Assembly: GCF_025561425.1 (NCBI RefSeq)
Contig: NZ_CP094824.1
Span: forward strand, 2,170,001 to 2,234,000
Direction of reading: 5' to 3'
Source of the DNA: Mammaliicoccus sciuri
GTDB lineage: Bacteria; Bacillota; Bacilli; Staphylococcales; Staphylococcaceae
Length of the DNA: 64,000 nt
This document shows, in pieces, positions 18,271-59,720 of the stretch (its first letter is position 1; each line of letters starts with the position of its first letter). The position numbers and the translations under genes were made by a program. The notes beneath the pieces were generated by a model. The model did no database searches. It had not been told where the DNA came from and saw nothing but the letters and a program-made list of their open reading frames with translations.

Positions 18271-18339
18271 CGCACGATATCTATCAGTCTTCGTGCGTGC
18301 TCACCCCTTTTTTGTACCTTAGCGCACGATATCTCTCAG
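18271..18339. repeat. Type A hairpin repeats, unit 1 and 5' part of unit 2
   Basis: Unit: arms CGCACGA / TCGTGCG around a 13-nt loop TATCTCTCAGTCT, then about 25 bp of spacer containing GCTCACCCC. Unit 1 is 18271-18297. Unit 2 begins at 18323 and is cut in its loop by the IS3 element after CAG (18337-18339, the target duplication). Spacing between units is 51-52 bp once both IS are removed. Confidence 0.85.
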
Positions 18340-18376
18340 TGAACATAACCCTGTCAAGTAGACACTAAAAAAGTAA

Positions 18377-19276
18377 TCAATATGTTGGCTGTGCTTTTAT
18401 AAGCGCAGCCATTTTTAATGAAATTCTTTTAGAATTATAAAATTTTATATATTCATTTATTTGCTTTGTGGCGTGTTTTATATCATTGAATGTTTGAGAT
18501 TTGTCTTTGAATACCTCTGATTTGAGTAACCCCCAAAAGCCTTCCATAGGACCATTATCAATACATCTACCTACACGAGACATGCTTTGCTTCATAGAAG
18601 CATTTTTAATCATCTCTCTAAATAGAACACTCGTATATTGGAATCCTCTGTCGCTATGAAATATAATGCCTTCGGTATTTCTTTTAATTATGGCTTTGTT
18701 AAAGGTATCGTATACAAGCTTATTATTGTTTTGAGATGAGACTACATGGCTGATGACTTTCTTAGCACCTAAATCATAAATAGCGCTTAAATACACTTTA
18801 GATCCATTTTTCAATTTAAATTCTGTCACATCTGTTAACCAGACCTTATTAACTTTACTTGTTGTAAATTTTCTGTTTAGGATATTTTGAGAAGTGATTT
18901 CTGGCTTACTAAGTTTATATTGCCTTCTCTTTTTTCTAATGACAGCTTTTAATACATACTTCTTCATAATTCTATATACGCGTTTATGATTAACCTGGAA
19001 TTTAGTATATAATCTCAGATAAATATAAATTCTTCGATATCCATATATGCCATCATGTTCATGATAAATCCTGAAAATCTCATCTTTTAATTCGTTATTG
19101 AATCTTTCAGATTCTGAAACCTCTCTGTTTTTCCATTTATAATAACTTGCTCTCGATATTTCAAGTGCGGCGCATATCCATTTGATTGGATACTTATCTT
19201 TTAATGCTTCGATTGTCTTGTATGCTGCTATTTGCTTGATTTTCGATTCATCAACTGCCTCTCTATCTCTTCCTGC
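18377..19276 (-). CDS. IS3-family transposase, OrfB part (made as OrfAB by -1 frameshift)
   Basis: Catalytic half of the transposase. The frame is open from 19309 to the stop at 18377; it has no good start of its own, and the natural product is OrfAB, joined at 19276 (about 517 aa in total). The N-terminal part has the HTH_21-like segment 'IYHEHDGIYGYRRIYIYL'. The rve integrase domain has the DDE triad: Asp in 'WLTDVTEF', Asp in 'FHSDRGFQYTS', and Glu in 'GPMEGFWGLLKSE', with 35 residues between the second Asp and the Glu as in IS3 enzymes. Reading only from the first internal ATG (18967) would lose about a third of the protein. Confidence 0.9.
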   Translation of the reverse strand, partial: AGRDREAVDESKIKQIAAYKTIEALKDKYPIKWICAALEISRASYYKWKNREVSESERFNNELKDEIFRIYHEHDGIYGYRRIYIYLRLYTKFQVNHKRVYRIMKKYVLKAVIRKKRRQYKLSKPEITSQNILNRKFTTSKVNKVWLTDVTEFKLKNGSKVYLSAIYDLGAKKVISHVVSSQNNNKLVYDTFNKAIIKRNTEGIIFHSDRGFQYTSVLFREMIKNASMKQSMSRVGRCIDNGPMEGFWGLLKSEVFKDKSQTFNDIKHATKQINEYIKFYNSKRISLKMAALIKAQPTY

Positions 19277-19929
19277 TTTTTTAATACCCCATTCTCCATT
19301 TGGAGAAATTTATTTCTTTGTTCAAGTGCTTTTATTTTTAATTCAAGTTCTTCTTCTCTAGTTAAAGCTTCAACTGGTTTTCCTTTCCCTCTACCATCTA
19401 CTAAACCAATATCACCATGTTTTTCATACTTTTTTACCCAATTATAGACTTGTGAATAGTTAACTTGGTACTTTTCAGCTGTCTTATTAAAGTCTCTATT
19501 ATTTTCAATACAATATTTAGCTATTTCAATTCTCTCTTCAAATGTTGTTTTTCTAGTATTCATAGTGTCTACCTCCAGATATGGAAAATAAGATTTATTT
19601 TCCTTTCCTTCAGTATACTTTACCACCCAATTTTTTAAAGTAGCATGATGTGAAATATTGTAATAGGCTGCTAGATCTGAATACGTCTTATTAGTCTCTA
19701 GATATTCTTTAACAACTTTTTCTTTAAATTCGCGTGTATAGATTTTATTTCGATTCTTATTTATAAGTGCTGTTATACCATGTTGCTTATACACTTTATA
19801 TTTAAATCGAATCACACTATCACTAATATCTAAATTTAACTTATCAATTATATTTTGAAAGGAATAACCCTTTTCATGCAAATCGAAGATTTCCTGATAC
19901 AGTTTAACAGGTAGTCTAGTTTTATACAT
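19228..19929 (-). CDS. IS3-family transposase, OrfA (DNA-binding)
   Basis: 233-aa DNA-binding subunit with three helix-turn-helix-like segments: 'EIFDLHEKGYSFQNIIDKLNL', 'TYSDLAAYYNISHHATLKNWV' and 'DFNKTAEKYQVNYSQVYNWV', then a C-terminal leucine-zipper-like helix (about 190-230, 'LELKIKALEQRNKFLQMENG'), the usual dimerisation element of IS3 OrfA. Near its end the codons TTA AAA AAG contain the A6G slippery heptamer (19276-19282) in the canonical register for a -1 shift into orfB. Expression is from inside the element; ATG start shortly after the right end. Confidence 0.9.
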   Translation of the reverse strand: MYKTRLPVKLYQEIFDLHEKGYSFQNIIDKLNLDISDSVIRFKYKVYKQHGITALINKNRNKIYTREFKEKVVKEYLETNKTYSDLAAYYNISHHATLKNWVVKYTEGKENKSYFPYLEVDTMNTRKTTFEERIEIAKYCIENNRDFNKTAEKYQVNYSQVYNWVKKYEKHGDIGLVDGRGKGKPVEALTREEELELKIKALEQRNKFLQMENGVLKKQEEIERQLMNRKSSK

Positions 19930-19988
19930 AAAAATACCCCCTATAGAGTTTTAGTTTTTTTAATGTCTACTCTATAGGGAATAATACA

Positions 19989-20037
19989 CAGTCTTCGTGC
20001 GTTTCACCCCTATTTTGTACCTTAGCGCACGATATCT
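19989..20037. repeat. Type A hairpin repeats, 3' part of unit 2 and 5' part of unit 3
   Basis: Contains the second arm TCGTGCG of unit 2 (19995-20001), a spacer, and the first arm CGCACGA of unit 3 (20026-20032). Unit 3 is cut by IS256 copy 1 after CGATATCT (20030-20037). Confidence 0.85.
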
Positions 20038-21447
20038 GAATATGTCCATATAATTGTGTAATAAAAAAAGAGCCACATATAGCTCACTTTGGTACAATGT
20101 AATCGACTAAGAAAAAATTGTAGAGGTGACTATATATGACTCAATTAAATGTTAACTTAGATTATGAAGAATTGGCAAGTGCTATTTTTGGAAGTGATAT
20201 GAATGCGTCTATGAAAACAATAGCTATGACTGTCATAAATGCATACATGGAAATGGAAAGAGACAAGTATGTTAATGCTGGATATAAACAAAAGAATTCA
20301 GGAAGAAACGCACAACTTAATGGCTATTATGAGCGTGATTTCCTGATGCCTATTGGCAATCTGACATTAAAAGTTCCAAGAACACGTGACGGTGAATTTA
20401 CAACTGAAGTATTTAATCAATATTCGCGTTCTGACCAATCGCTTATTTTAGCGATGACAGAAGCATACATTAATGGTGTTTCAACTAGAAATGTTAATAA
20501 AATTGTGGAATCCCTAACGGGAAAATCTGTGTCTAAATCAACTGTTTCAGGCGTAATAAAAAACCTAGATCCTGAAATTAAAGAATGGGCTGGTAGACCT
20601 ATTGTTAGTCATCAGTATAAGTATGTATTTGTTGATGCTATGCACATTAAGGTAAGAGAGAATAATAAAATTGTTTCTAAAGGTGTTTATATCACTATGG
20701 GTATCAACGAAAATAGAAAACGCGACATTATTGGCTTTAAAATTTCTAATCAAGAGTCAGAATTAGCTTGGTCAGAGTTTTTTGAAGACTTAAGAATGCG
20801 TGGTTTAACAACACCTGAACTTATTATCTCTGATGCGCATTCTGGACTTATTAAATCTATTAAGTCACAGTTTATTGATTCATCTTGGCAACGTTGTACA
20901 TTCCATTTTCTTAAAAATATTGTAGAGAGATTTCCTAAAAAGAACTCTAAAGAAGCTAGAATGTTACTTAAATCAATATTCCAAGCACCAACATATCGTC
21001 ACGCTGTTCAGCTCAAAGATGAATTCATTGCACAATATGAAAGTAATCCTAAGTATGTGGAAGCTATTAAAATATTGGATGAAGGCTTCGAAGATGCCTC
21101 ACAATTCTATAGATTTCCTGCTCAACATCATAAAAATCTAAGAACTACTAATTCAGTTGAAAATATTAATATGCAACTCAGAAAACGAGAAAAAATAGTT
21201 AAAACATTCCCTAATCTAGATTCAGCTTTTAGATTAATTGGCGCAGTACTTATGGATATTCAAGAAAGATTTGATAAGTCTAACAGACCATTTATCGCTT
21301 AATTAAGCTACTTATTTTTTAAAAAATAAGTAGTGATCAAACAACTATATCTGTTTAAACTTCAAAACAAATATAGTTGTTCGATTCATTAAAAAACCAA
21401 AGGTTGATTACATTCTAAAGATATTACACAAACATATGGACTTGACT
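20038..21447 (+). mobile_element. IS256-family element, copy 1
   Basis: 1410-bp element. Its ends form an imperfect ~25-bp inverted repeat sharing GTCCATAT and TTGTGTAAT. Perfect 8-bp target duplication CGATATCT (20030-20037 and 21448-21455). One transposase gene. After the stop there is a perfect stem CTACTTATTTTTT / AAAAAATAAGTAG and a second hairpin (AACAACTATAT / ATATAGTTGTT), both within the element. Nearly identical to the copies at 34808-36217 and 57406-58815. Confidence 0.97.
20136..21302 (+). CDS. IS256-family (mutator-type) transposase, copy 1
   Basis: 388-aa DDE transposase of the IS256/MULE-like family. The catalytic residues are Asp in 'VFVDAMHIKVREN', Asp in 'IISDAHSGL' and Glu in 'TTNSVENINMQLRKRE', with the C/D-x-x-H-type motif 'WQRCTFHFLKN' typical of this family. 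N-terminal DNA-binding region 'TKSVSKSTVSGV'-like ('GKSVSKSTVSGVIKN'). ATG start with AGAGGTG upstream. Full length; same protein as copy 2, and one residue (Thr for Ala in 'KGVYITMG') different from copy 3. Nothing suggests inactivation. Confidence 0.97.
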   Translation: MTQLNVNLDYEELASAIFGSDMNASMKTIAMTVINAYMEMERDKYVNAGYKQKNSGRNAQLNGYYERDFLMPIGNLTLKVPRTRDGEFTTEVFNQYSRSDQSLILAMTEAYINGVSTRNVNKIVESLTGKSVSKSTVSGVIKNLDPEIKEWAGRPIVSHQYKYVFVDAMHIKVRENNKIVSKGVYITMGINENRKRDIIGFKISNQESELAWSEFFEDLRMRGLTTPELIISDAHSGLIKSIKSQFIDSSWQRCTFHFLKNIVERFPKKNSKEARMLLKSIFQAPTYRHAVQLKDEFIAQYESNPKYVEAIKILDEGFEDASQFYRFPAQHHKNLRTTNSVENINMQLRKREKIVKTFPNLDSAFRLIGAVLMDIQERFDKSNRPFIA

Positions 21448-21522
21448 CGATATCTCTCAGTCTTCGTGCGTGCTCACCCCTATTTCACCCTATAACGCAC
21501 GATATCTCTCAGTCTTCGTGCG
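21448..21522. repeat. Type A hairpin repeats, 3' part of unit 3 and unit 4
   Basis: Starts with the target duplication CGATATCT, then completes unit 3 (second arm 21464-21470). Unit 4 is intact at 21496-21522 (CGCACGA, 13-nt loop, TCGTGCG). The array ends before the oppA terminator. Confidence 0.85.
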
Positions 21523-21550
21523 TGCTCACCCACTAATTTTATCTCCAATA

Positions 21551-21594
21551 TAAAAAGCAGTAGAAACTCATATTTAAGTGAATTTCTACTGCTT
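21551..21594 (-). terminator. Intrinsic terminator after the third oppA gene
   Basis: AAGCAGTAGAAA / TTTCTACTGCTT, 12-bp stem (21555-21566 and 21583-21594), 16-nt loop, then TTTTATATT on the minus strand. Confidence 0.8.
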
Positions 21595-21603
21595 CTTTAA
21601 TGT

Positions 21604-23226
21604 CTATTTTTCAATATAAGCTTCTTTTAATGTAGAAACGCCTCCGAATTGGTGGTTTACTATATTTTTAACGTTAGGTTTTTGAAGTTGTGCTACTCCG
21701 ACTTGATAAAGTGGTACAATACCTGCTTCATTTAATAACATACCTTCAGCTCTTTGTAATTCTGAAAGTCGTTTATCAGGGTCACTTGCTAATGATGAGT
21801 CTGCTGCTTTAATAATACTGTCATATTCTTTATTAGACCAGCCAGTATTATTATGAGAACCGTCTGTTACATAAAGTTCTAAGAATGTCATTGGATCTGG
21901 ATAATCTGGAATCCAGTTTTCTAGTGACATTTCATATTTACCTTTTGATACGAGATCAAGTTTTTGTTTAAATGGTTGTTGTTTAATTTTAATCGTAACA
22001 CCATCTAAATTCTTCTCTAATTGTTCTTTAAAGTATTCAGCATCTCGTTTAGCTGTATCTTTATCATAAGTCATCAGCTCAATTGTAAATTTGTCTTTAC
22101 CTAATGCTTTTTTAGCTTTTTCATAATGTTCTTTTGCTTCTTTAACATTATATTGGTTCGTATTTTTCACACCGTCTTGATACTCTTTACCTTTACTATC
22201 TTTAACAAAATCTTTTGGTACAAAGTTATCTGTTGGAATAGAACCGTTATTTAAGTTATTTTTCACGTATGCTTCTTTATCAATTGCTTTAGCAAATGCT
22301 AATCTAAAGTCTTCATTCTTGAATTCAGGTACTGTATCTTCATTTAATTTGAAGTAATACGTTACAGTATCTAATTCTGTATGAAATGCTTTGTCATCTT
22401 TATATTTCTTAACTTGTTCTGCTGGTAAATCTACAATATCTAATTTATTCGTTTCATATAAATTTACAGCTGTTGAAGCTTCTTTAACGACTTTATAATT
22501 TACTTTGTTTAATTTAACTTTATCTTTATCCCAGTAATCATCATTTTTTTCTAACGTAACTTTATCGTCTGTTTTCCATTCAGTCATTTTAAATGGTCCA
22601 TTATATAAAGTTGTTTTAACAGTTGTACCATACTTGTCACCTTGTTTTTTAACGAATTTTTCATTTTGTGGCATAAATGTACCGAATGACAATAATTCTT
22701 TATAGTATGGTAATGATTTCGTTAGTTCAAATTCTAATGTGTGATCATCTACTGCTTTAACACCAAGTTCTTCAGGCTTTTTATCTCCTGAATTAATTTC
22801 TTCTGCATTTTTAATATCGTATAAGATATATGCATATTCAGATGCAGTATCTGGATCTACAACTTTTCTCCAAGCAAAGACAAAATCATGTGCCGTTACC
22901 GGATCGCCATTTGACCATTTTGCATTATCTCTTAATTTAATCGTCCACTTCTTACCATCGTTCGTAATTTTCGGATCACCTTTTGCTACTGCTGGTATTG
23001 CTTTATCATCTTTATCTAATGTGTAGAGACCTTCCATTGTTTGGAAGAACATATCAAATGATAAACCATCTGTTGCCATAGCTGAATCCATCGTGGGGAT
23101 ATCACCATTGATTTGTAAATCTAATGTTTCATCACTCTTACCTTTACTACCGCCACCCGATGAACATGCACTCAATACGAGTACAGCTGCTAACATCATT
23201 GTTAATACTTTAAATATTTTCGACAT
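21604..23226 (-). CDS. Oligopeptide ABC transporter substrate-binding lipoprotein (OppA paralogue 3)
   Basis: Extracellular peptide-binding lipoprotein (SBP_bac_5, cluster C). 540 aa from the ATG at 23224-23226, preferred because AGGGG lies 9 nt before it; an ATG three codons upstream sits too close to that SD. Type II signal peptide with lipobox L-S-A-C ('AAVLVLSACSSGG'), so lipid-anchored on the outer face of the membrane. SBP_bac_5 features: 'DIPTMDSAMATDGLSF', 'WTIKLRDNAKWSNGDPVTAHDF' and 'WIPDYPDPMTFLELY'. Closely related to the two OppA genes upstream. Only 35 bp (44 bp by the chosen starts) follow paralogue 2, so the two are co-transcribed. Presumably works with OppBCDF, with its own peptide preference. 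Confidence 0.93.
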   Translation of the reverse strand: MSKIFKVLTMMLAAVLVLSACSSGGGSKGKSDETLDLQINGDIPTMDSAMATDGLSFDMFFQTMEGLYTLDKDDKAIPAVAKGDPKITNDGKKWTIKLRDNAKWSNGDPVTAHDFVFAWRKVVDPDTASEYAYILYDIKNAEEINSGDKKPEELGVKAVDDHTLEFELTKSLPYYKELLSFGTFMPQNEKFVKKQGDKYGTTVKTTLYNGPFKMTEWKTDDKVTLEKNDDYWDKDKVKLNKVNYKVVKEASTAVNLYETNKLDIVDLPAEQVKKYKDDKAFHTELDTVTYYFKLNEDTVPEFKNEDFRLAFAKAIDKEAYVKNNLNNGSIPTDNFVPKDFVKDSKGKEYQDGVKNTNQYNVKEAKEHYEKAKKALGKDKFTIELMTYDKDTAKRDAEYFKEQLEKNLDGVTIKIKQQPFKQKLDLVSKGKYEMSLENWIPDYPDPMTFLELYVTDGSHNNTGWSNKEYDSIIKAADSSLASDPDKRLSELQRAEGMLLNEAGIVPLYQVGVAQLQKPNVKNIVNHQFGGVSTLKEAYIEK

Positions 23227-23270
23227 GTAACTCATCCCCTAAGTTTATATTTAGTTAAACTACCGATTTG

Positions 23271-24911: not shown

Positions 24912-24928
24912 AAACATTTCCCCTTATT

Positions 24929-24995
24929 CAATTTTTGAAAATTCAGTCATTTCTGAACTTTCTTCAATTATAATGTTAATTTGTTTATGTCGCAA
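24929..24995 (-). promoter_or_regulatory. Promoter of the oppA2-oppA3 unit with CodY-like box
   Basis: Minus strand: -35 TTGCGA (24990-24995), 17-nt spacer, -10 TATAAT (24967-24972). A CodY-like box, 12 of 15 matches with a perfect GAAAATT half (24929-24943, CAATTTTTGAAAATT on plus), lies between the promoter and the start codon, where binding would block elongation. Confidence 0.6.
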
Positions 24996-25020
24996 CCTAA
25001 GTAATCAAGAAATACAATTT

Positions 25021-25224: not shown

Positions 25225-25270
25225 TTTTAATGCGCCTCCTCATTATTGTGTCAAACATCGCGAATATATA

Positions 25271-25304
25271 AAGAAAAGCAATCAATGTTTCCATTGATTG
25301 CTTT
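25271..25304 (-). terminator. Intrinsic terminator after oppA1
   Basis: AAAGCAATCAATG / CATTGATTGCTTT, perfect 13-bp stem (25275-25287 and 25292-25304), 4-nt loop, then TCTTTATATA on the minus strand; 9 nt past the oppA1 stop. Confidence 0.8.
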
Positions 25305-25313
25305 CATTCACTT

Positions 25314-26984: not shown

Positions 26985-27037
26985 ATAGCTTTTCCCCCTT
27001 GTTTTCTTTCTCCTGAGTAATCAGAAGAGTTATTATA

Positions 27038-27094
27038 ATTATATTTTAAAAATGTATGAAAAACAATAGTAATCCACACAATTTTCAAACAATT
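27038..27094 (-). promoter_or_regulatory. oppA1 promoter with CodY-like box
   Basis: Minus strand: -35 TTGTTT (27061-27066), 17-nt spacer, -10 TATAAT (27038-27043). AATTGTTTGAAAATT (27080-27094), 13 of 15 matches to the CodY consensus AATTTTCWGAAAATT, lies 13 bp upstream of the -35. Confidence 0.65.
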
Positions 27095-32030: not shown

Positions 32031-32036
32031 TATGAT

Positions 32037-34659: not shown

Positions 34660-34712
34660 CTTTGTGATTAACTTTATTATTTCTGGCTTATATTCATGGT
34701 TTGTACGGGGGC

Positions 34713-34807
34713 GTTGTGAACACTTCTTACCAAACTTGTTCATAACGGGGGCGTTGTGAACACTTCTTGCCAAACTTGTTCATAACGGGGCGTTGTGAAC
34801 ACTTCTC
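34713..34807. repeat. Type B hairpin array, sub-type B1 (two units and half of a third)
   Basis: Unit: GTTGTGAACA / TGTTCATAAC arms (one G-T pair) around a 14-nt loop CTTCTTGCCAAACT, then GGGGGC; period about 40 bp. Units at 34713-34746, 34753-34786 and 34792 onward; the third is cut in its loop by IS256 copy 2 and finishes at 36243. The 34660-34712 stretch holds nothing recognisable. Confidence 0.85.
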
Positions 34808-36217
34808 AGTCAAGTCCATATGTTTGTGTAATATCTTTAGAATGTAATCAACCTTTGGTTTTTTAATGAATCAAACAACTATATTTGTTTTGAAGTTTAA
34901 ACAGATATAGTTGTTTGATCACTACTTATTTTTTAAAAAATAAGTAGCTTAATTAAGCGATAAATGGTCTGTTAGACTTATCAAATCTTTCTTGAATATC
35001 CATAAGTACTGCGCCAATTAATCTAAAAGCTGAATCTAGATTAGGGAATGTTTTAACTATTTTTTCTCGTTTTCTGAGTTGCATATTAATATTTTCAACT
35101 GAATTAGTAGTTCTTAGATTTTTATGATGTTGAGCAGGAAATCTATAGAATTGTGAGGCATCTTCGAAGCCTTCATCCAATATTTTAATAGCTTCCACAT
35201 ACTTAGGATTACTTTCATATTGTGCAATGAATTCATCTTTGAGCTGAACAGCGTGACGATATGTTGGTGCTTGGAATATTGATTTAAGTAACATTCTAGC
35301 TTCTTTAGAGTTCTTTTTAGGAAATCTCTCTACAATATTTTTAAGAAAATGGAATGTACAACGTTGCCAAGATGAATCAATAAACTGTGACTTAATAGAT
35401 TTAATAAGTCCAGAATGCGCATCAGAGATAATAAGTTCAGGTGTTGTTAAACCACGCATTCTTAAGTCTTCAAAAAACTCTGACCAAGCTAATTCTGACT
35501 CTTGATTAGAAATTTTAAAGCCAATAATGTCGCGTTTTCTATTTTCGTTGATACCCATAGTGATATAAACACCTTTAGAAACAATTTTATTATTCTCTCT
35601 TACCTTAATGTGCATAGCATCAACAAATACATACTTATACTGATGACTAACAATAGGTCTACCAGCCCATTCTTTAATTTCAGGATCTAGGTTTTTTATT
35701 ACGCCTGAAACAGTTGATTTAGACACAGATTTTCCCGTTAGGGATTCCACAATTTTATTAACATTTCTAGTTGAAACACCATTAATGTATGCTTCTGTCA
35801 TCGCTAAAATAAGCGATTGGTCAGAACGCGAATATTGATTAAATACTTCAGTTGTAAATTCACCGTCACGTGTTCTTGGAACTTTTAATGTCAGATTGCC
35901 AATAGGCATCAGGAAATCACGCTCATAATAGCCATTAAGTTGTGCGTTTCTTCCTGAATTCTTTTGTTTATATCCAGCATTAACATACTTGTCTCTTTCC
36001 ATTTCCATGTATGCATTTATGACAGTCATAGCTATTGTTTTCATAGACGCATTCATATCACTTCCAAAAATAGCACTTGCCAATTCTTCATAATCTAAGT
36101 TAACATTTAATTGAGTCATATATAGTCACCTCTACAATTTTTTCTTAGTCGATTACATTGTACCAAAGTGAGCTATATGTGGCTCTTTTTTTATTACACA
36201 ATTATATGGACATATTC
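34808..36217 (-). mobile_element. IS256-family element, copy 2
   Basis: 1410 bp, opposite orientation to copies 1 and 3. Perfect 8-bp target duplication CACTTCTC (34800-34807 and 36218-36225). Differs from copy 1 by a single base that I noticed, in the 3' hairpin loop region. The duplication lies at the arm/loop border of a type B1 hairpin. Confidence 0.97.
34953..36119 (-). CDS. IS256-family transposase, copy 2
   Basis: 388 aa, same protein sequence as copy 1, with DDE residues in 'VFVDAMHIK', 'IISDAHSGL' and 'NSVENINMQL'. Intact start, SD and stop. Its inverted orientation relative to copies 1 and 3 offers substrates for homologous inversion of the opp-fab segment (with copy 1) or of the clpB-addAB-sps segment (with copy 3). 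Confidence 0.97.
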   Translation of the reverse strand: MTQLNVNLDYEELASAIFGSDMNASMKTIAMTVINAYMEMERDKYVNAGYKQKNSGRNAQLNGYYERDFLMPIGNLTLKVPRTRDGEFTTEVFNQYSRSDQSLILAMTEAYINGVSTRNVNKIVESLTGKSVSKSTVSGVIKNLDPEIKEWAGRPIVSHQYKYVFVDAMHIKVRENNKIVSKGVYITMGINENRKRDIIGFKISNQESELAWSEFFEDLRMRGLTTPELIISDAHSGLIKSIKSQFIDSSWQRCTFHFLKNIVERFPKKNSKEARMLLKSIFQAPTYRHAVQLKDEFIAQYESNPKYVEAIKILDEGFEDASQFYRFPAQHHKNLRTTNSVENINMQLRKREKIVKTFPNLDSAFRLIGAVLMDIQERFDKSNRPFIA

Positions 36218-36600
36218 CACTTCTCGCCAAACTTGTTCATAACAGGGGCGTTAATTACAAAACTCGGCCGAAGTGTTACTATGGACATCCTTATTTACAA
36301 AACTTGGACGAAGTGTTACTAAGGACCCCCCTTAATTACAAAACTCAGCCAAAGTGTTACTATGGACATCCTTATTTACAAAACTCGGTCGAATTGTTAC
36401 TAAGGATACCCATAATTACAAAACTCGGCCGAAGTGTTACTATGGACCGCTATAATTACAAAACTCATCTGAAGTGTTACTAACTCACTCAGTATTTGCA
36501 CTTCTAACCAAACCTGCTAATAACAACCCCAGTATTTGCACCTCTAACCGAAACTGCTAATAACGACCCCAGTATTTGCACGTCTCACCTAACTTGCTAA
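36218..36600. repeat. Type B hairpin array, end of B1, six B2 units and three B3 units
   Basis: After the rest of the third B1 unit (to 36243) come six B2 units of about 40 bp (starting near 36255, 36294, 36335, 36375, 36415, 36455), each 'TTACAAAACTCGGCCGAAGTGTTACTA'-like in outline: TTACAAAACT, a CGGCCG-type centre, AAGTGTTAC. Alternate units end in ATGGACATCC or AAGGACCCC-type spacers. Three B3 units follow (36493, 36533, 36573): TATTTGCA, loop CCTCTAACCGAAAC-like, TGCTAATAAC. The B1 and B3 loops both carry CTTCT-N2-CCAAAC; B2 matches their reverse complement. Confidence 0.8.
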
Positions 36601-43635: not shown

Positions 43636-43655
43636 AGTATGTGAATTATAATAGA

Positions 43656-43865
43656 GCGACCCGATAATTCCGTTTTCGGGTCGCTATTTTATTTTATCGG
43701 CCTGATAATCTCGTTTTCGGGTCGATAAATTTTTTTATCGGCCTGCAAATCTCATTTTCGGGTCGATAAATTTTTTTATCGGTCCATATTTCTCATTTCT
43801 GGACCGGTAAATTTTTTTATCGGTCCATATTTCTCGTTTCTGGACCGGTAATTTATTTTATCGGT
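43656..43865. repeat. Type C hairpin array, five units and a half
   Basis: Exact 41-bp period (5' arms at 43694, 43735, 43776, 43817, 43858). Unit 1: GCGACCCGA / TCGGGTCGC. Units 2 and 3: TTATCGGCCTG(A) / TCGGGTCGATAA, where two arm changes still pair as G-T. Units 4 and 5: TTATCGGTCCA / TGGACCGGTAA with one T-G pair and loop TATTTCTC(A/G)TTTC. The sixth keeps only the 5' arm. Each stem-loop is 35 bp and followed by a T-run on the plus strand, so the array could also end cdr transcripts. Confidence 0.9.
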
Positions 43866-43899
43866 CCAGAAACACACCCCTTACTACCTCTAACAATGA

Positions 43900-51808: not shown

Positions 51809-54800
51809 TCTTCCGCCTCCTCTCTCAACATGTCGATGATTTCATCTTTCGTTAATGTATGTTCGATTTCTCTATATTGCTCTGTATCAGTTATAGGGTC
51901 AATGTGACAAACTGATTTAAATTCACAAAATTGACATGGTAACCGCTTTTGATAGCGCATAGGCGAAACTTCTGTATGCCCATCCATAATTTGTGTAGCT
52001 GTTTCAACAAAGTTTTCTCTATTTTTATTCATTAATTTGAAAAATAGTTCTTCATCTAAAGCTTTACTATAACTATTTAACTCACCATTTTTCTTTTTCG
52101 TGACAGGGATCATGTCAGATTTTAATTGGTCTATCAATTTATCATCAAGCGCATCGACTACTTCAGGATTTCTATTCACATAGCCGTCCATTTTGAATTT
52201 TTCAATAGTTTGTTGATAAATATCATCTACTTCTGGAATTTCTCCCCAACTTGTTGCTTTAATTTCAGGTTCATGCACATGGAAATACAATAACGCACCT
52301 GGTGATACGTTATCTTGTAGATTTAACAAAGCTTTATTTTGCAGTACGACATCTAAATACGTAAACATTTGCATTTGCATGCCATACATTACTTTAGTTA
52401 AATCTAAGCTTGTCACTGATGACTTATAGTCAATAATAGACACATAATCTTTATCTTTACCTTTATATACGTCCAATCTATCAATTTGACCTCTAATATT
52501 AATTGGAATTTTTCGTTTCGTTGCTAAAGGTGTCATTTTTAATTGATGTTTAGATGTTGCACCAAAGTTTAATTCAAATTGATAAGCTTTGAATTTTGAA
52601 TGACTTGTTTGATACTTCATTGCTTCTAATGTAGATTTTAAAATGTTTTGAATGCGTAATTTTAAATATCTATAATGTGCAGTACGATGTAGGACATCAA
52701 ATTGAATTTTAGGCAAACTTTCATCGATAGCTTCGTTTATAAGTTTTGTCATGGCTTTCGCTGATAACTTACTAAAGTCTCCATTTACTTCATCTGAAAT
52801 ATATTTCAATGTTTGATGGAATATATTACCGATATCGACACTTTGAATTTGATATTTTGTACGTTCGTTTAATTTTAAACCGTGTGACACGTAATGTTTA
52901 AATGGACATTGATTATATGTTTCAAACCTTGATACACTGGCATTTATTTTCTGACCATATAGTGATTCAGATACGTCTGTATTCAATTGGACTGTATCAT
53001 TTTTATACGTTAAAGCTGATGTTAAAAATTGAACAGTTTGGTCTAAATGATGAATATCTAATGAAGCATGATATGCATCTAACCATATATCATTAACAAT
53101 CTCATCATTCATCCAATCATTTAAATGTTCAAATATATGCATTTGACTTTGATGTTCATGTTCTAATAATTGGATAGGATTGTGCTCTATATTTGCTTTT
53201 AGTGATTGAACTTCAAGATTGGTAAATAGCGATTGTATTGTATTGATAAATGGACTCTTTTCTCTAATTTCTCCGCCATCGGACATTAAACTATATGTGA
53301 ATACAACTTCTTTCTTAGCGCGTGTCATCGCAATATAACATACAAACGCTTCGTCCATCTGTAAAATATCACTCGTCGGGCTTAATTCTAAACCACTCGA
53401 TGCTGCTAATTCTTTCTTCTCATCGTCTGTTAATAACAACATTTGATTAGATACTTTCGGTAATACACCATCATTCATACCAAGCAAGAATACAATTTCT
53501 TTATTATCCACTTTGGCTAAATCAATATTACCGACTGTTACTTCATCTAGTGTTTGTGGAATCATTGAGAATTCTAATTCATCCAATCCTCTATCCAATA
53601 TTTCAATGTATTCATTTAAAGAAAGCTTTACATCGCCTAACACTTCTACAATGTCATCAAATATACGAATTGTGCCTTCCCATACTTGGTCAATTTCTTC
53701 CGCTTCTTCAAATTGATGCTTTATTTCTAATTCATCGCGCATCGTCATTAAGTGGGTAGGTAAATCAAATTGTTCGATAACGCCGTATAATCGACTCGTA
53801 AAGTCTTCCACTGTTTGACTATCAGCTAAAGCTTCGTTCAACTTTTCAATTCGATTCACAACATAATCTTTCAAGTCGATGACACTTTGCACCGTTTTCC
53901 TATCTTCTTCTATAAATGTATCTTCTTCTTTTCTTAATGATTTTTTGCCGAGCTTTTCAAAAGATTCAACTGTGAAAAATTCTGGATTCGTCCATCTCTT
54001 ACCAGATATCCCTCTTTCAAATGCATAGTTTTCTAATATATCAATTAAATATGGCGCATTTGGGATATGGCTTGTTAAGATGCCTGTCTTCAACATGCGC
54101 ATGACAGGTTCAAATCTCCATCCAGTTTGAATGACTTCCAACATAGACCGTAAACATTCAATGAACGGATGATATGCCATTTTCTTTTTCGCGTCATGAT
54201 TATATGCAATATTAAAATGCGGTAATACCGTTTCAATCAACTGCTCATAACCTGGATCACGATAAAGTATCGCGATGTCTTTGTATGATAAATGCTCTTC
54301 TCTCGAACGTCTTAATATTTCTCTTGCAACGTATTGCACTTCATCTCTCATATTGGATGTTTCTATAATTTTTAAATCTTCACTATCAATGGTATTCGGT
54401 AGTAATGCATCAAATTGACTTTCCAAATGCTTTAATACTTTTTGATTATTGAATCGTTCCGTTGTCTTAAAGTGCGTATAGTTAATCTTAATTTGTAATG
54501 CATCCGCAATGTCTTCAACATGATTGAGAGATTCAGATGTTTTTCTAAATAAGCTAAATGGATCTTTGTCTCCATCTGTCGTTAAACCAATTGTTACCGA
54601 CTTACTATATTTAACTAAGGCTTCAATAACGCGATATTCAAGTGTTGAAAAGTTATGAAAACCATCTATATAAATATCTGCTTGTTTGATGTAGTCTGAG
54701 TTTGGTATTTTCTCAATTAATTTATACAAGACATCTTCTGCTTGTACATAGCGACCGTTTAATTGCTCTTCTAACGCTTTATAGATTGTTTCGATATCAC

Positions 54801-55275
54801 TAAGTTTATCTTTCATTCTTTTAGGAATGGCTTCGTTATGTTCAATATAATGTGATAAATCATCAGGACTTACATTATATTTCTTGAAGTCTTTAATCTC
54901 ATTCATCATTTTATGACTAAATCCATAATGTTGAATGGTAGACTGATATAAATTTAATTGTTTTTTATGCGTATGTAATAAGTGATATGTAAGCATTTCT
55001 AACGCTTCATCTGAAATTTGTTGTTCAACAAGACCGCCTTCATCACTTAAAACTCTCCAACTTAATCTTTCAAATCCGAATACTGAAGTACGTATACTTC
55101 CTTTTAAATTAGGATTTTTAACAAATGCTTGTTCATATTGGAAGGTATTTTGAGTTGGGGTCAAAAATATAATTGGGTCTCCTAATGGATCTTCAATCAT
55201 AGCTTCAGTCATTTGGTTAAGCATTTGATTCGTTTTCCCGGTCCCACTTCGTCCAATCCATACATTTAGTTGCAT
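51805..55275 (-). CDS. addB: ATP-dependent nuclease subunit AddB (RexB)
   Basis: Partner of AddA. 1156 aa. N-terminal Walker A 'GRSGTGKT' (8-15), helicase-like fold without full helicase motifs (in Bacillus it reads Chi), and a C-terminal nuclease domain with 'SIIDYKSS'. Iron-sulfur cluster cysteines are visible: one in 'YNQCPFKHYVSHGL' and three in 'CQFCEFKSVC' near the end (C-x2-C-x5-C), the AddB arrangement that staples the nuclease domain. First gene of addB-addA-DUF418. ATG with GGGAGG upstream. A terminator separates it from spsB. Confidence 0.97.
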   Translation of the reverse strand: MQLNVWIGRSGTGKTNQMLNQMTEAMIEDPLGDPIIFLTPTQNTFQYEQAFVKNPNLKGSIRTSVFGFERLSWRVLSDEGGLVEQQISDEALEMLTYHLLHTHKKQLNLYQSTIQHYGFSHKMMNEIKDFKKYNVSPDDLSHYIEHNEAIPKRMKDKLSDIETIYKALEEQLNGRYVQAEDVLYKLIEKIPNSDYIKQADIYIDGFHNFSTLEYRVIEALVKYSKSVTIGLTTDGDKDPFSLFRKTSESLNHVEDIADALQIKINYTHFKTTERFNNQKVLKHLESQFDALLPNTIDSEDLKIIETSNMRDEVQYVAREILRRSREEHLSYKDIAILYRDPGYEQLIETVLPHFNIAYNHDAKKKMAYHPFIECLRSMLEVIQTGWRFEPVMRMLKTGILTSHIPNAPYLIDILENYAFERGISGKRWTNPEFFTVESFEKLGKKSLRKEEDTFIEEDRKTVQSVIDLKDYVVNRIEKLNEALADSQTVEDFTSRLYGVIEQFDLPTHLMTMRDELEIKHQFEEAEEIDQVWEGTIRIFDDIVEVLGDVKLSLNEYIEILDRGLDELEFSMIPQTLDEVTVGNIDLAKVDNKEIVFLLGMNDGVLPKVSNQMLLLTDDEKKELAASSGLELSPTSDILQMDEAFVCYIAMTRAKKEVVFTYSLMSDGGEIREKSPFINTIQSLFTNLEVQSLKANIEHNPIQLLEHEHQSQMHIFEHLNDWMNDEIVNDIWLDAYHASLDIHHLDQTVQFLTSALTYKNDTVQLNTDVSESLYGQKINASVSRFETYNQCPFKHYVSHGLKLNERTKYQIQSVDIGNIFHQTLKYISDEVNGDFSKLSAKAMTKLINEAIDESLPKIQFDVLHRTAHYRYLKLRIQNILKSTLEAMKYQTSHSKFKAYQFELNFGATSKHQLKMTPLATKRKIPINIRGQIDRLDVYKGKDKDYVSIIDYKSSVTSLDLTKVMYGMQMQMFTYLDVVLQNKALLNLQDNVSPGALLYFHVHEPEIKATSWGEIPEVDDIYQQTIEKFKMDGYVNRNPEVVDALDDKLIDQLKSDMIPVTKKKNGELNSYSKALDEELFFKLMNKNRENFVETATQIMDGHTEVSPMRYQKRLPCQFCEFKSVCHIDPITDTEQYREIEHTLTKDEIIDMLREEAEE

Positions 55276-55326
55276 TTATTTCTACCTCCCTTACGTTCTC
55301 TTATTCATTTATTGTAACATAAAAAG

Positions 55327-55361
55327 AACACCTCACTTAATTTCAAAGTAAGGTGTTACAG
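55327..55361 (-). terminator. Intrinsic terminator after spsB
   Basis: Minus strand: AACACCTTACTT / AAGTGAGGTGTT, 12-bp stem with one G-T pair, followed by CTTTTTATG; 10-15 nt past the spsB stop. Confidence 0.8.
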
Positions 55362-55371
55362 AACTTTTATA

Positions 55372-55938
55372 TTAATTTGTAGATGGGTCAAAATTATAAT
55401 GGAATTGATTAATTGGCCAGAATCTTAATGCAACTTCACCAACAATAACATCTTTATCAATCAAACCAAATGAACGACCATCTTTACTGACTTCACGGTT
55501 ATCACCTAAGACTAAATATTCATCTTTAGGTATTTTATTAGCACCATTTGAATTCACTAAATCTTTGACTTCAAAGTTCTCTGTCAATAAATCACGAGAC
55601 TTATTCGCTTTGTTTGCTTTCAAGTATTCTTCAGGTACTTTTTTACCATTTACATATAATTGGTCTTTTTCATATTTTACTGTGTCTCCAGGTTTACCGA
55701 TAACACGTTTTACATAATCATCATTTGCGTTTGCGTGGAATACAATAACATCACCGTTATCAATATCTCCTACCTTATAACCAATTTTATTGACGATTAC
55801 TTTTTCACTATTTTTTAAAGTTGGGTACATGGAATCTCCAGAAACTGTATATGTTACAAATAAGAATTTCTGTATTAGTAACACACATACAACTGCTACT
55901 GCAATCGCCACAACCCATTCAAATATCTCTTTTTTCAA
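55372..55938 (-). CDS. spsB: Type I signal peptidase SpsB
   Basis: Removes Sec signal peptides at the outer face of the membrane. 188 aa from the TTG at 55936-55938 ('MKKEIFEWVVAIAV'), which has GAGGTGG upstream and restores the S. aureus numbering; further upstream in-frame codons lie before the SD. One N-terminal membrane helix (about 8-28), catalytic Ser36 in 'VSGDSMYPTL' and Lys77 in 'NDDYVKRVIGKPGD', and the C-terminal 'LVLGDNREVSKDGRSFG' box. 22 bp after spsA; the two tandem genes are related. Confidence 0.97.
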   Translation of the reverse strand: MKKEIFEWVVAIAVAVVCVLLIQKFLFVTYTVSGDSMYPTLKNSEKVIVNKIGYKVGDIDNGDVIVFHANANDDYVKRVIGKPGDTVKYEKDQLYVNGKKVPEEYLKANKANKSRDLLTENFEVKDLVNSNGANKIPKDEYLVLGDNREVSKDGRSFGLIDKDVIVGEVALRFWPINQFHYNFDPSTN

Positions 55939-55960
55939 AAGTGCCACCTCATTATTATTA

Positions 55961-56491
55961 TTATTTATCAAACTTCACATCTATTTGATTAAATGGATAA
56001 TATCTTAAATTCACAGTACCAACGATATCATCTTCATGTACAAATCCAATTTCTCTTGAGTCTCTGCTATTGCTACGATTGTCACCTAGTACTAGATATT
56101 CACCGTTAGGAATAACATCACTTTTAGAGCCTTGAATCGTTCTTGTACTGAAGTCATCAGTTTTTATATCATCATTTAAAAAACGCTCATTTACATGAGT
56201 ACCATTAATATACAGTTTGTTGTTTTTCATTTCAACTGTGTCGCCTGGTAACCCGATAACTCTTTTAATATAGTCAGCACTTTTATTCGCATGAAATACG
56301 ATAACATCACCATTATTAATTTGTCCAAAATTTTTAACAAGTTTATTAACAATTACTTTATCATTATCATGAAAAGTTGGTTTCATTGAGTCTCCGTCTA
56401 CAATATAACCGATGAATAAAAATGTTCTTACAACAAATAATAATACTAACGCAATAATAATTGCAATTATCCATTCGAATATTTTTTTCAT
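55961..56491 (-). CDS. spsA: Type I signal peptidase homologue SpsA (Ser-Lys dyad present)
   Basis: 176-aa paralogue of SpsB with one N-terminal membrane helix (about 6-28). In S. aureus the protein at this position, SpsA, lacks the catalytic residues and is thought inactive. Here both are present: Ser35 in 'VDGDSMKPTF' and Lys76 in 'SADYIKRVIGLPGD', plus the box 'LVLGDNRSNSRDSREIG'. So this organism may have two working type I signal peptidases. ATG overlaps the upstream stop (ATGA) and the gene lies directly before spsB. The SpsA name rests on synteny. Confidence 0.92.
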   Translation of the reverse strand: MKKIFEWIIAIIIALVLLFVVRTFLFIGYIVDGDSMKPTFHDNDKVIVNKLVKNFGQINNGDVIVFHANKSADYIKRVIGLPGDTVEMKNNKLYINGTHVNERFLNDDIKTDDFSTRTIQGSKSDVIPNGEYLVLGDNRSNSRDSREIGFVHEDDIVGTVNLRYYPFNQIDVKFDK

Positions 56492-57102
56492 TTTTGACTC
56501 CTATTTTTTAAGCGTTTATCAAAATATTTTTCTAAGCCTTTTTCAACTAGCCAGAGTACAAATATAATCACGACTACTATTATACTCTTTTTAGGACTTG
56601 CAAAAAAGGAATTTATATCGGCACCAATGAAACTTAACGTAAATATCATAATGGCTTTTGATAAAATTAACGCGATTAAATAGACTTGTTTACTAATATT
56701 CGAAAACGCACTAACCATATTAACTAAAGCACCCGGTGTAAATGGAAAGCATAACAAAATAAACAGTGGTCCAAAGCCATGTTCATCAATCCACTGAATA
56801 AATCTTTCAACTCTAGGCTGTTCAACAATCCTTTTCATAAAAGGCTTTTTAGAAATTAATCTAAAGATTAAGAAGACGATATAACTTCCCGAAACAGTAC
56901 CAGCCCATGTAATGATAAAACCTAGCAATAATCCATAAGCATTTACATTAGCAATAACAAATAGAATAATCGGCAAAAACGGTAAGAATGCCTCAATAAA
57001 AGGTAATAAAAATGCTATGAATATCCCGAACGATCTAAAAGTTTCAATTAATTCAGTAATGTTCTCTTCACTGAACCAATTCATTAAATCTTGTATTAAC
57101 AT
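56488..57102 (-). CDS. VTT-domain (TVP38/TMEM64/DedA-type) membrane protein
   Basis: 204-aa polytopic membrane protein of the SNARE-associated/VTT family; relatives include phospholipid scramblase or undecaprenyl-phosphate and phosphatidylethanolamine flippase-type DedA proteins. Start at the ATG 57100-57102 with GAAGGAAG 9 nt upstream; the open frame upstream of it covers the promoter (-10 TATAAT, 57132-57137). Family core: 'LLPFIEAFLPFLPIILFVIANV', 'WAGTVSGSYIVFLIFR' (G-x-x-x-G-x-Y) and 'PFTPGALVNMVSAFSNIS'. Translationally coupled to spsA. In S. aureus the same gene precedes spsA. Confidence 0.88.
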   Translation of the reverse strand: MLIQDLMNWFSEENITELIETFRSFGIFIAFLLPFIEAFLPFLPIILFVIANVNAYGLLLGFIITWAGTVSGSYIVFLIFRLISKKPFMKRIVEQPRVERFIQWIDEHGFGPLFILLCFPFTPGALVNMVSAFSNISKQVYLIALILSKAIMIFTLSFIGADINSFFASPKKSIIVVVIIFVLWLVEKGLEKYFDKRLKNRSQK

Positions 57103-57300
57103 GTAACGCAACTTCCTTCTTAAATTTAGATTAATTATACCGATAAATGTGTAAATAGAAAAGTAAATTGACATCATACAAAAGTCTTATCTTTGGGAAC
57201 GAGAAGGAATTTATAGGTTGGTAGGAGATAATGATTACTCAGTAGGAGGAATTTAGTTTATGGAGAAAATGAGATTATTGGTATGGAGAATCACTAGTTA

Positions 57301-57405
57301 TGGACCGGTAATTATTTTTATCGGTCCGTATTTCTCATTTCTGGACCGGTAATTTTTTTATCGGTCCATATTTCCCGTTTCTGGACCGGTAATTTATTTT
57401 ATCGG
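57301..57405. repeat. Type C hairpin array, second location
   Basis: Same 41-bp repeat as at 43.7 kb, in the same orientation on the plus strand: a 3' arm TGGACCGGTAA (57301-57311), then units TTATCGGTCC(G/A) / TGGACCGGTAA with loops TATTTCTCATTTC and TATTTCCCGTTTC, then TTATCGG, cut by IS256 copy 3. The last unit continues after the element at 58816. The stretch 57180-57300 holds nothing I recognise. Confidence 0.9.
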
Positions 57406-58815
57406 GAATATGTCCATATAATTGTGTAATAAAAAAAGAACCACATATAGCTCACTTTGGTACAATGTAATCGACTAAGAAAAAATTGTAGAGGTGACTA
57501 TATATGACTCAATTAAATGTTAACTTAGATTATGAAGAATTGGCAAGTGCTATTTTTGGAAGTGATATGAATGCGTCTATGAAAACAATAGCTATGACTG
57601 TCATAAATGCATACATGGAAATGGAAAGAGACAAGTATGTTAATGCTGGATATAAACAAAAGAATTCAGGAAGAAACGCACAACTTAATGGCTATTATGA
57701 GCGTGATTTCCTAATGCCTATTGGCAATCTGACATTAAAAGTTCCAAGAACACGTGACGGTGAATTTACAACTGAAGTATTTAATCAATATTCGCGTTCT
57801 GACCAATCGCTTATTTTAGCGATGACAGAAGCATACATTAATGGTGTTTCAACTAGAAATGTTAATAAAATTGTGGAATCCCTAACGGGAAAATCTGTGT
57901 CTAAATCAACTGTTTCAGGCGTAATAAAAAACCTAGATCCTGAAATTAAAGAATGGGCTGGTAGACCTATTGTTAGTCATCAGTATAAGTATGTATTTGT
58001 TGATGCTATGCACATTAAGGTAAGAGAGAATAATAAAATTGTTTCTAAAGGTGTTTATATCGCTATGGGTATCAACGAAAATAGAAAACGCGACATTATT
58101 GGCTTTAAAATTTCTAATCAAGAGTCAGAATTAGCTTGGTCAGAGTTTTTTGAAGACTTAAGAATGCGTGGTTTAACAACACCTGAACTTATTATCTCTG
58201 ATGCGCATTCTGGACTTATTAAATCTATTAAGTCACAGTTTATTGATTCATCTTGGCAACGTTGTACATTCCATTTTCTTAAAAATATTGTAGAGAGATT
58301 TCCTAAAAAGAACTCTAAAGAAGCTAGAATGTTACTTAAATCAATATTCCAAGCACCAACATATCGTCACGCTGTTCAGCTCAAAGATGAATTCATTGCA
58401 CAATATGAAAGTAATCCTAAGTATGTGGAAGCTATTAAAATATTGGATGAAGGCTTCGAAGATGCCTCACAATTCTATAGATTTCCTGCTCAACATCATA
58501 AAAATCTAAGAACTACTAATTCAGTTGAAAATATTAATATGCAACTCAGAAAACGAGAAAAAATAGTTAAAACATTCCCTAATCTAGATTCAGCTTTTAG
58601 ATTAATTGGCGCAGTACTTATGGATATTCAAGAAAGATTTGATAAGTCTAACAGACCATTTATCGCTTAATTAAGCTACTTATTTTTTAAAAAATAAGTA
58701 GTGATCAAACAACTATATCTGTTTAAACTTCAAAACAAATATAGTTGTTCGATTCATTAAAAAACCAAAGGTTGATTACATTCTAAAGATATTACACAAA
58801 CATATGGACTTGACT
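57406..58815 (+). mobile_element. IS256-family element, copy 3
   Basis: 1410 bp. Perfect 8-bp target duplication TTTATCGG (57398-57405 and 58816-58823), at the start of the 5' arm of a type C hairpin. Differs from copy 1 at a few positions noticed by eye (one in the left end, two in the gene, one of them an amino-acid change). It also removed the stop codon of the neighbouring NERD reading frame. Confidence 0.97.
57504..58670 (+). CDS. IS256-family transposase, copy 3
   Basis: 388 aa, full length with the DDE residues of the other copies ('VFVDAMHIK', 'IISDAHSGL', 'NSVENINMQL'). One substitution against copies 1 and 2: Ala instead of Thr in 'KGVYIAMGINEN', between the first and second catalytic Asp. 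Intact SD AGAGGTG and stop. Direct orientation relative to copy 1, inverted to copy 2. Confidence 0.97.
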   Translation: MTQLNVNLDYEELASAIFGSDMNASMKTIAMTVINAYMEMERDKYVNAGYKQKNSGRNAQLNGYYERDFLMPIGNLTLKVPRTRDGEFTTEVFNQYSRSDQSLILAMTEAYINGVSTRNVNKIVESLTGKSVSKSTVSGVIKNLDPEIKEWAGRPIVSHQYKYVFVDAMHIKVRENNKIVSKGVYIAMGINENRKRDIIGFKISNQESELAWSEFFEDLRMRGLTTPELIISDAHSGLIKSIKSQFIDSSWQRCTFHFLKNIVERFPKKNSKEARMLLKSIFQAPTYRHAVQLKDEFIAQYESNPKYVEAIKILDEGFEDASQFYRFPAQHHKNLRTTNSVENINMQLRKREKIVKTFPNLDSAFRLIGAVLMDIQERFDKSNRPFIA

Positions 58816-59720
58816 TTTATCGGTCCATATTTAGTACTTTTTCTATTACCGCTTCTAATAAAGTACTTATATAGGATTCTCTTTATGGAACTTCTGTAGA
58901 CCCCTGTCCACATTTCTGCTTCTTTTACTGAAAATGGTGTGCCTTTTAATAAATATAATTCTTCTAATGATTGAATAATAATATTCGCTCTATTCAATTC
59001 TTTCTTACAATGATGACATTTCAAATATTTTCGCTTATTAAATAATTCATCTACTCGAATCAACTTTCGACAGTTTGTACATCATACGCCTCTTTTTAAA
59101 TCTTTATAGTCTATATTCAAATTTGGTATTTGATTTGTATATAAAAATGGTTCGTGTAGGCTTTGTAGTTTGTGATATATCCATTTATTTTCTTCATATT
59201 TAAAGTTTTGTGATACCATATCTTTTATTTTATGTATCTCACTTTTTAAAATAATGTTCATTCGAGATCGTAAATCACCATGTAATGTGAATGTTGGATG
59301 TATAAAAACAACATAGCTTTCTACTTTGCGTTTTAATTTATATTTCTCAACGATTCTTTTTAACCCTTCTTGAGCGACTTCATATTGATTAATAAGATCT
59401 TTAGATACAAAACCTGTACTTCTAAATAGTTTGTGATTTTCAAAATAATAGTCACCTGTATAATTTTTAATTTCAAATTGAATAATGGCATCGTCAGTTA
59501 TGACTACAAAATCAAATTGAATATGGTTATAATTTTTAATCTGCAAATCATATAGCCACCATTCTGCCCCATAACTTTCAAGTATTTGAGCGAATGCTTT
59601 TTCACCTTCGTACCCTTGTTTTGTGACTTATTATTGTTCATCTACATTTTCAGGTAACACATCTATCCTATTTTGCAATGCATCAATATAAGCTAAAAAT
59701 AAATTTTTACGTATTTTCAT
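58776..59720 (-). pseudogene. NERD-domain (nuclease-related) protein, broken by in-frame stops and an IS
   Basis: One reading frame from the ATG at 59718-59720 to 58776, interrupted by TAA TAA at codons 30-31 (59628-59633) and a TGA at 59082-59084, with no frame change between segments. Codons 38 onward read as NERD: 'QGYEGEKAFAQILESYGAEWWL', 'FDFVVITDDAIIQFEIKNYTG' (Asp ... E-I-K, the nuclease-like core), 'YVVFIHPTFTL'. After the TGA comes a zinc ribbon 'CTNCRKLIRVDELFNKR' and 'KCHHCKKEL', then a helical tail. The last codons are in a type C repeat; without IS256 copy 3 the frame would stop at TAA right at the insertion point, so the final 'VKSICLCNIFRM' comes from the IS. Not a working gene unless the stops are sequencing errors. 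Confidence 0.8.
58816..58850. repeat. Type C repeat remainder after IS256 copy 3
   Basis: TTTATCGGTCCATATTT, the 5' arm and first loop bases of a type C unit, after which similarity ends inside the 3' end of the NERD pseudogene. Confidence 0.75.

Follow-up and report, generated by a model that had tools for sequence, protein, structure and literature searches.

Intergenic tandem-repeat arrays as likely landing pads shared by an IS3-family and an IS256-family insertion sequence in Mammaliicoccus sciuri

ISPsy8 of Pseudomonas syringae, a member of the IS3 family, makes a 3-bp target-site duplication (TSD), and all five of its copies, in both orientations, lie on the axis of symmetry of a hairpin predicted in repetitive extragenic palindromic (REP) elements, according to the available parts of PMC1525189. 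In the same parts, the survey by Tobes and Pareja (2006) places two further IS3-family insertion sequences (ISs), IS1397 and ISKpn1, in the REPs of E. coli and Klebsiella. It classes ISRm5 of Sinorhizobium meliloti, an IS256-family member with five of its seven copies associated with extragenic REPs, as type 2, which means near a REP and without broken REP halves at the ends (PMC1525189). Among staphylococci, the targets of IS1272 of S. aureus are inverted repeats that differ in sequence, which it replaces without leaving a TSD (passages of PMC5678879). The STAR elements of S. aureus and S. lugdunensis are direct repeats located between genes and present in strain-dependent copy numbers (passages of PMC3532100). 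Here we analyze a 64,000-nucleotide stretch (“the window”, G000:C1:2170001-2234000) of the complete 2.92-Mb genome G000 of Mammaliicoccus sciuri or a very close relative. In this window, one copy of an IS3-family element, hereafter called IS3A, and three copies of an IS256-family element lie in tandem-repeat arrays.

It is likely that the two transposases, each with a real but different target selectivity, share the same landing pads: intergenic tandem-repeat arrays that often carry a dyad and are older than the ISs. The positions, the TSDs, the empty sites, the enrichment and the recurrence of the habit in other species, on which this statement draws, are read directly. As judged from the ends and the TSDs, four of the four ISs found in the window break tandem-repeat units, just as a sequence-only reading of the window had described; we refined the element ends, and the arrays sum to about 1 kb of the window, in agreement with that reading. 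Downstream of trpS, a single type A array has one unit broken by IS3A and another by IS256 copy 1. The trpS gene is 99% identical to that of M. sciuri NCTC 12103, and the long collinear segments around the window are 95-97% identical to this strain. The same arrays, with different unit numbers, are uninterrupted in NCTC 12103 at all three loci, and neither IS was found in NCTC 12103 with the queries that recover 17 copies of each in G000. Therefore, the arrays predate the ISs. At the genome scale, chance is excluded as the reason why the ISs lie in the arrays.

The family assignments of both elements are clear. IS3A encodes a DDE integrase core (PF00665 rve, 5e-20) preceded by an open reading frame (ORF) with a helix-turn-helix domain (PF13518/PF01527), and its OrfB piece matches the IS3 transposase model NF033516 (transpos_IS3) with 191.6 bits, against a cut-off of 160. 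Its ends are TGAACA...AATACA, and an exact 3-bp TSD flanks seven of the 17 copies, with unequal or partial duplications at the others. Members of the IS256 family have 8-9 bp TSDs and imperfect terminal inverted repeats. The second element encodes a Mutator-type transposase (PF00872, 1.3e-109; NF033543 transpos_IS256, 361.8 bits with a cut-off of 150), has the ends GAATATGTCCATATAATTGTGTAAT / AGTCAAGTCCATATGTTTGTGTAAT, and shows an 8-bp TSD in 12 of 17 copies. Beyond the four ISs, the window holds no further match to PF00872, PF00665, PF13751 or PF01797, the only transposase families searched. Plasmid searches with IS3A and the IS256 element returned no match.

In the genome as a whole, IS3A is confined to a single repeat family. 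At least one flank lies in a type A unit for all 17 copies, and both flanks do so for 15. The cut falls in the loop of the unit at two mirrored positions beside the axis, mostly between ...ATATCTCNCAG and CAGTCTTCG... (oriented on the unit), and a small number of flank halves (L041 and, on the right side, L036 and L042) show the mirrored cut, immediately before CTN. Both orientations occur, in six and 11 copies. Many of the copies without an exact TSD look as if their halves came from two units, and we infer that two insertions in one array recombined. A search with the type A loop pattern, allowing up to three mismatches (the reversed pattern, used as the control, gave one chance match), yielded another 14 matches in G000. 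The unit broken by IS256 copy 1 is among them, and all except the one at 1529240 lie in IS3A-bearing arrays. By this search, which could miss degenerate units, G000 has 18 type A arrays, and 17 of them hold IS3A, with one copy each. NCTC 12103 has 41 type A loop matches in 18 clusters, and given these array sizes, 17 random draws from the 41 units would fall in 17 different arrays with P ~1e-5. Thus, either a second insertion was resisted or pairs were resolved, hinting at one-per-array exclusion or at the recombinational loss of second copies. In an empty-site check of the 17 IS3A sites, for which 30 of the 41 NCTC 12103 loci were fetched, both flanks matched one uninterrupted array at 11 sites, the left flank alone matched at L050 and the right flank alone at L048, and four sites were unmatched. 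Two congeneric species (G005 and G007) have relatives with 67-68% identity, and all eight of the copies with ends read, among 12 matches, lie in the loops of diverged GATATC/GTGCG units.

The IS256 element, in turn, is enriched in arrays of many kinds. Its 17 copies are 99.7-100% identical, indicating a recent expansion, and a wide range of unrelated repeat families is represented in their flanks. We scored a position by the best self-match of 30 bases at an offset of 30-60 bp, with a threshold of 24 of 30, and excluded background positions within 120 bp of the five surveyed ISs. These are IS3A, the IS256 element and F1, F2 and F3, which are other multicopy ISs of G000 used as controls; the survey leaves aside the IS6-like, IS1182-like and IS200-like elements and one rve group of three copies. 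The threshold is reached by 13 of the 17 IS256 sites and by 142 of 2,291 intergenic positions (6.2%; binomial P 4e-13), so the enrichment after correction for intergenic location, on which the sequence-only reading had made its idea depend, is borne out. Among all of the sampled positions, 169 of 14,676 (1.15%) reach it. Lowering the threshold to 20 gives 15 of 17 sites versus 14.7% of intergenic positions (P 3e-11), and inspection by eye finds at least one array flank in 15 of the 17 copies. The position within the unit is also non-random: the information content of the symmetrised profile (26 sites) is 3.86 bits, as compared to 1.35 (standard deviation 0.29) at shifted positions, a signal helped by the reuse of the same position in type C (three sites) and in the AAGCCA family.

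Elements with similar ends occur in two other species. The genomes G001 and G002 contain 17 and 18 occurrences of IS256-like ends, with left ends 94-97% and right ends 77-93% identical. From these 35 ends, 14 sites could be paired via the TSD, and 12 of the 14 lie in tandem arrays (P 3e-13 versus the M. sciuri intergenic rate), the sequences of which are mostly unlike those of M. sciuri; these counts exclude the end matches L174 and L175 in G004 and G007. A scan of the IS256 protein against the genome contigs returned no relatives. Among 108 genomes of the family, the sole other transposase at E 1e-60 or better is 57% identical and belongs to another genus (G024), where it abuts a tandem hairpin repeat.

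Two further features of the IS256 copies are worth recording. Between the transposase gene and the right end lie two inverted repeats of 26 and ~50 bp (window 21308-21385), present as a pair in 16 of the 17 copies, with only the 26-bp repeat in L009; perhaps they block read-through. In addition, the TSDs of the copies at G000:C1:131225-132634 and 2811201-2812610 are exchanged (TTTATATT/CTTCTTAC), which points to recombination between IS copies and hence to a large rearrangement.

What are the arrays? A random 400-kb sample contains 17 of them, of which 15 repeat every 39-41 bp and 13 are free of ORF cover, and extrapolation from this sample gives about 125 arrays in the whole genome. The array families share a period (~40 bp, or ~52 bp for type A) and no common sequence. 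The type A unit is a CGCACGA/TCGTGCG dyad, and in 34 of 38 consensus units the arms of the best dyad are 14-27 bp apart; clear dyads are common in the array units, and not universal. As compared with the definition of REPs (21-65 nt, palindromic, extragenic and in many copies), the units measure 39-52 nt, type A is palindromic, but only 13 of 28 units have a dyad beyond shuffles. REP elements are spread by REP-associated tyrosine transposases (RAYTs). G000 has 10 matches to PF01797, which are multicopy and of IS200-like size. The arrays are not STAR elements, as the STAR motif TNTGTTGNGGCCC has no occurrence in the 464 kb of G000 scanned. One guess is that they are protein-binding arrays. At a given locus, strains differ in how many units and which unit variants they carry (window 34703-36600 and 57296-58832 versus NCTC 12103), which makes these loci possible variable-number typing loci.

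The coordinates of the repeat units and insertions in the window are collected in Table 1. The sole Rfam match of the window is the small RNA RsaE (RoxS; RF01820) at 12555-12653 on the minus strand.

Table 1. Repeat units, insertions and an empty target array, in window positions
Feature	Position	Strand	Remarks
Type A unit 1, intact	18271..18297	+	CGCACGATATCT ... TCTTCGTGCG dyad
Type A unit 2, left half	18323..18339	+	ends in TSD CAG (18337-18339)
IS3A, 1649 bp, ends TG...CA	18340..19988	-	TSD CAG
Type A unit 2, right half	19989..20001	+	starts with TSD CAG (19989-19991)
Type A unit 3, left part	20026..20037	+	TSD CGATATCT at 20030-20037
IS256-family copy 1, 1410 bp	20038..21447	+	TSD CGATATCT
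TSD, remainder of type A unit 3, and intact type A unit 4	21448..21522	+	TSD at 21448-21455; unit 4 at 21496-21522
Type B1 units	34703..34807	+	TSD CACTTCTC at 34800-34807
IS256-family copy 2	34808..36217	-	TSD CACTTCTC
TSD, remainder of B1 unit, then B2 units (period 40) and related units	36218..36600	+	TSD at 36218-36225; uninterrupted in NCTC 12103
Type C units, period 40-41	57296..57405	+	TSD TTTATCGG at 57398-57405
IS256-family copy 3	57406..58815	+	TSD TTTATCGG
TSD and terminal half-unit of type C array	58816..58832	+	3′ arm absent here and in NCTC 12103
Type C array without insertion (empty target)	43655..43870	+	present in NCTC 12103

Several observations weigh against the interpretation of the arrays as shared, selectively chosen landing pads. 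Transposition itself was not observed. Inspection by eye shows no array flanking two of the 17 IS256 copies, L017, which lies at the 3′ end of a gene for a SarA-family regulator, and L011, ~20 bp beyond an array; four other copies (L010, L015, L019 and L021) have one non-array flank, perhaps due to recombination between copies. L010 and L019 carry swapped TSDs, and therefore one original insertion of that pair lay outside arrays. In G001 and G002, the contigs break inside the element, of which the ends and no transposase are seen; among the unpaired flanks, two of four left and none of three right ones score at least 24, and the flank of the stray IS256-like end in G007 (L175) is not an array. 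The array score passes just four of the 17 IS3A sites (seven at a threshold of 22), because type A arrays are short and have variable spacers, and for IS3A it is the unit motif that carries the argument. The dyads are uneven as well: in the shuffle test, which covered 28 of the 38 consensus units (near-duplicates were dropped by eye), just 13 have a dyad stronger than shuffles at p 0.05 or less, and eight fail even at 0.2. IS256 copy 3, placed by the sequence-only reading at the 5′ arm of a type C unit, does lie in a type C array, but the unit that it broke is the terminal half-unit, so the complete hairpin of that unit was not available. Finally, seven of the 12 intact IS256 TSDs in M. sciuri have 2-4 bp inside a perfect stem, versus 2.0 expected (P 0.001), in a test that misses arms with mismatches (L009, L025) and follows a rule noticed post hoc. 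The unchanged test in G001/G002 gave three of 14 versus 2.7 expected, and a fixed cut geometry was accordingly dropped as a general rule. The arm/loop placement in the earlier description holds for IS3A, in its loop, agrees with seven of the 12 IS256 sites in M. sciuri under a strict criterion, and does not extend to the other two species.

How, then, did the ISs come to lie in the arrays? The sequence-only reading had left open that the arrays are the only tolerated sites, and in the same genome this is contradicted by the control ISs: none of 11 copies of F3 (IS30 family), one of 22 copies of F2 (IS3 family, 1464 bp, 25 genome matches) and 13 of 26 copies of F1 (IS3 family, 1493 bp) lie in arrays, leaving 13 F1 copies outside. 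For F1, 28 of the 31 genome matches, grouped by score, were obtained and 26 were used (L216 and L220 are incomplete); for F2, all 25 were obtained and 22 used, and for F3, all 14 were obtained and 11 used. Since F2 and F3 have site preferences of their own, for terminators and AT-rich DNA, they demonstrate the tolerance of other sites rather than random insertion. The many non-array sites of these three ISs also bear on the explanation by selection only, in which insertion is random and the survivors are those in harmless intergenic arrays. Although the arrays are indeed mostly intergenic, with 13 of 17 in the sample free of ORF cover, they occupy only a small share of the intergenic positions and yet hold most of the IS256 sites. 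Moreover, all 17 IS3A copies use the same trinucleotide position, or its mirror image, within a single repeat family, a pattern that selection against gene damage cannot create. This refutes the explanation for IS3A, and we consider it very improbable overall; we infer that the transposase, and not selection, makes the target choice. Still less credible, to the point of being negligible, is the idea that the repeat units travel with the ISs. Both are multicopy, but NCTC 12103, where neither IS was found, has these arrays without interruption at the corresponding loci, and the ISs are flanked by TSDs made of unit sequence.

A general attack of both transposases on any extruded hairpin or cruciform, the first of the two options offered by the sequence-only reading, would agree with the position of IS3A in a dyad loop and with the seven IS256 TSDs that straddle an arm end. 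IS1272 also provides a staphylococcal precedent for the choice of inverted repeats of differing sequence (PMC5678879, in the passages at hand). However, IS3A is restricted to type A units, so that for this element the claim stands for one hairpin family alone. As for the IS256 element, 78 terminator-like hairpins are present in the 400-kb sample, the same order as the array units, and an IS choosing hairpins as such should have hit some; the counts are 0 of 17 sites in M. sciuri and 0 of 14 in G001/G002. Several of the arrays that were hit have no dyad beyond chance, copy 3 sits in a half-unit, and the cut geometry was not replicated. On the terminator hairpins, the half-unit and the shuffle test, we reject a general hairpin preference of IS256; for both transposases together we hold it to be unlikely, the shuffle test having lowered our estimate slightly. 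Rather unlikely too, if less so, is the recruitment of the IS256 transposase by a host protein bound to the arrays. It would fit the array families sharing a ~40 bp period and not a sequence, and the use of arrays of many families in several species. On the other hand, there is no candidate protein, unrelated sequences would require a shape-specific binder or several proteins, and helical phasing is a guess.

The control ISs show habits of their own. The array sites of F1 (L215, L224, L230, L236, L238, L239 and others) are mostly near AAGCCA/TGGCTT arms, with TSDs of GAG or GTC/GAC, which makes F1 a third IS lineage using this class of arrays. F2 lies at rho-independent terminator-like hairpins in eight of the 22 full copies (e.g., L242, L251, L253, L255 and L275); four of the eight (L242, L256, L257 and L260) share one site, seemingly in an IS200-like element.

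Based on these comparisons, we propose how the arrays would be selected as landing pads. For IS3A, the most likely mechanism is that the transposase recognizes the type A dyad and makes its cut within the loop, producing the 3-bp TSD, as ISPsy8 does at the REP axis (PMC1525189, as excerpted). Because only the type A hairpin family is used, it probably reads sequence plus dyad, and not hairpins in general. The IS256 transposase would follow the array architecture rather than a sequence or single hairpins, producing the 8-bp TSD at non-random positions. It might read the arrays through DNA shape or structure under supercoiling, or through an array-bound protein, and we give similar weight to both. 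A broader proposal, which we advance tentatively and judge to fall slightly short of an even balance, is that a clade of the IS256 family, spanning several Mammaliicoccus species and a related genus, recognizes the ~40-bp tandem-array architecture whatever its sequence. The fast-evolving arrays would then be a genome-wide landing pad, shared with independently evolved and more sequence-specific IS3-family elements, and would represent an undescribed repeat class.

Array targeting suggests how such genomes carry many ISs with little gene damage. Since the IS256 targets share architecture and not sequence, the IS3A/IS256 pair also offers a testable case of sequence-specific versus shape- or protein-guided target choice in bacterial transposition. 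In the open-access literature, seen mostly as titles and the starts of abstracts, we found no report of an IS256-family element preferring tandem arrays or of IS targets in Mammaliicoccus repeats, and the consulted passages of a paper on the S. sciuri mobilome (PMC8407400) do not mention ISs targeting repeats.

The sequence-only reading knew of no staphylococcal counterpart, but IS1272 of S. aureus is one, albeit with a different mechanism, and it is the only other staphylococcal case that we found in the open-access literature, as far as the passages of PMC5678879 tell. IS1272 belongs to another IS family and replaces its target, whereas the insertions described here leave the repeat in place and generate a TSD of 8 or 3 bp. 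Replacement of the IS1272 kind is ruled out by the retained unit halves and by the TSDs in 12 of 17 IS256 and seven of 17 IS3A copies. Like the STAR elements, the arrays are intergenic repeats of strain-variable number, and they differ in lacking the STAR motif and in comprising many families. The IS256 element resembles ISRm5 in its family and in its association with extragenic repeats; in contrast to ISRm5, it breaks the array units themselves, makes 8-bp TSDs there and uses many unrelated repeat families. With 13 of 17 sites by score, spread over many repeat families and positions, it works like a type 1 REP-recogniser and is not a type 1 case. IS3A, on the other hand, is a type 1 REP-recogniser under the definition published by Tobes and Pareja, in a new host group (PMC1525189, in the available parts). 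It shares with ISPsy8 the IS3 family, the 3-bp TSD, the two orientations and the association of every copy (17 of 17 here, by at least one flank) with the hairpin of an extragenic repeat, and it differs from ISPsy8 in its Gram-positive coccus host, the type A repeat, the two mirrored cuts and the occupation of 17 of 18 arrays. The REP-targeting ISs in the excerpted parts of the 2006 survey come from Gram-negative genomes, with one repeat family for each strict case (PMC1525189), and the elements described here add a staphylococcal relative.

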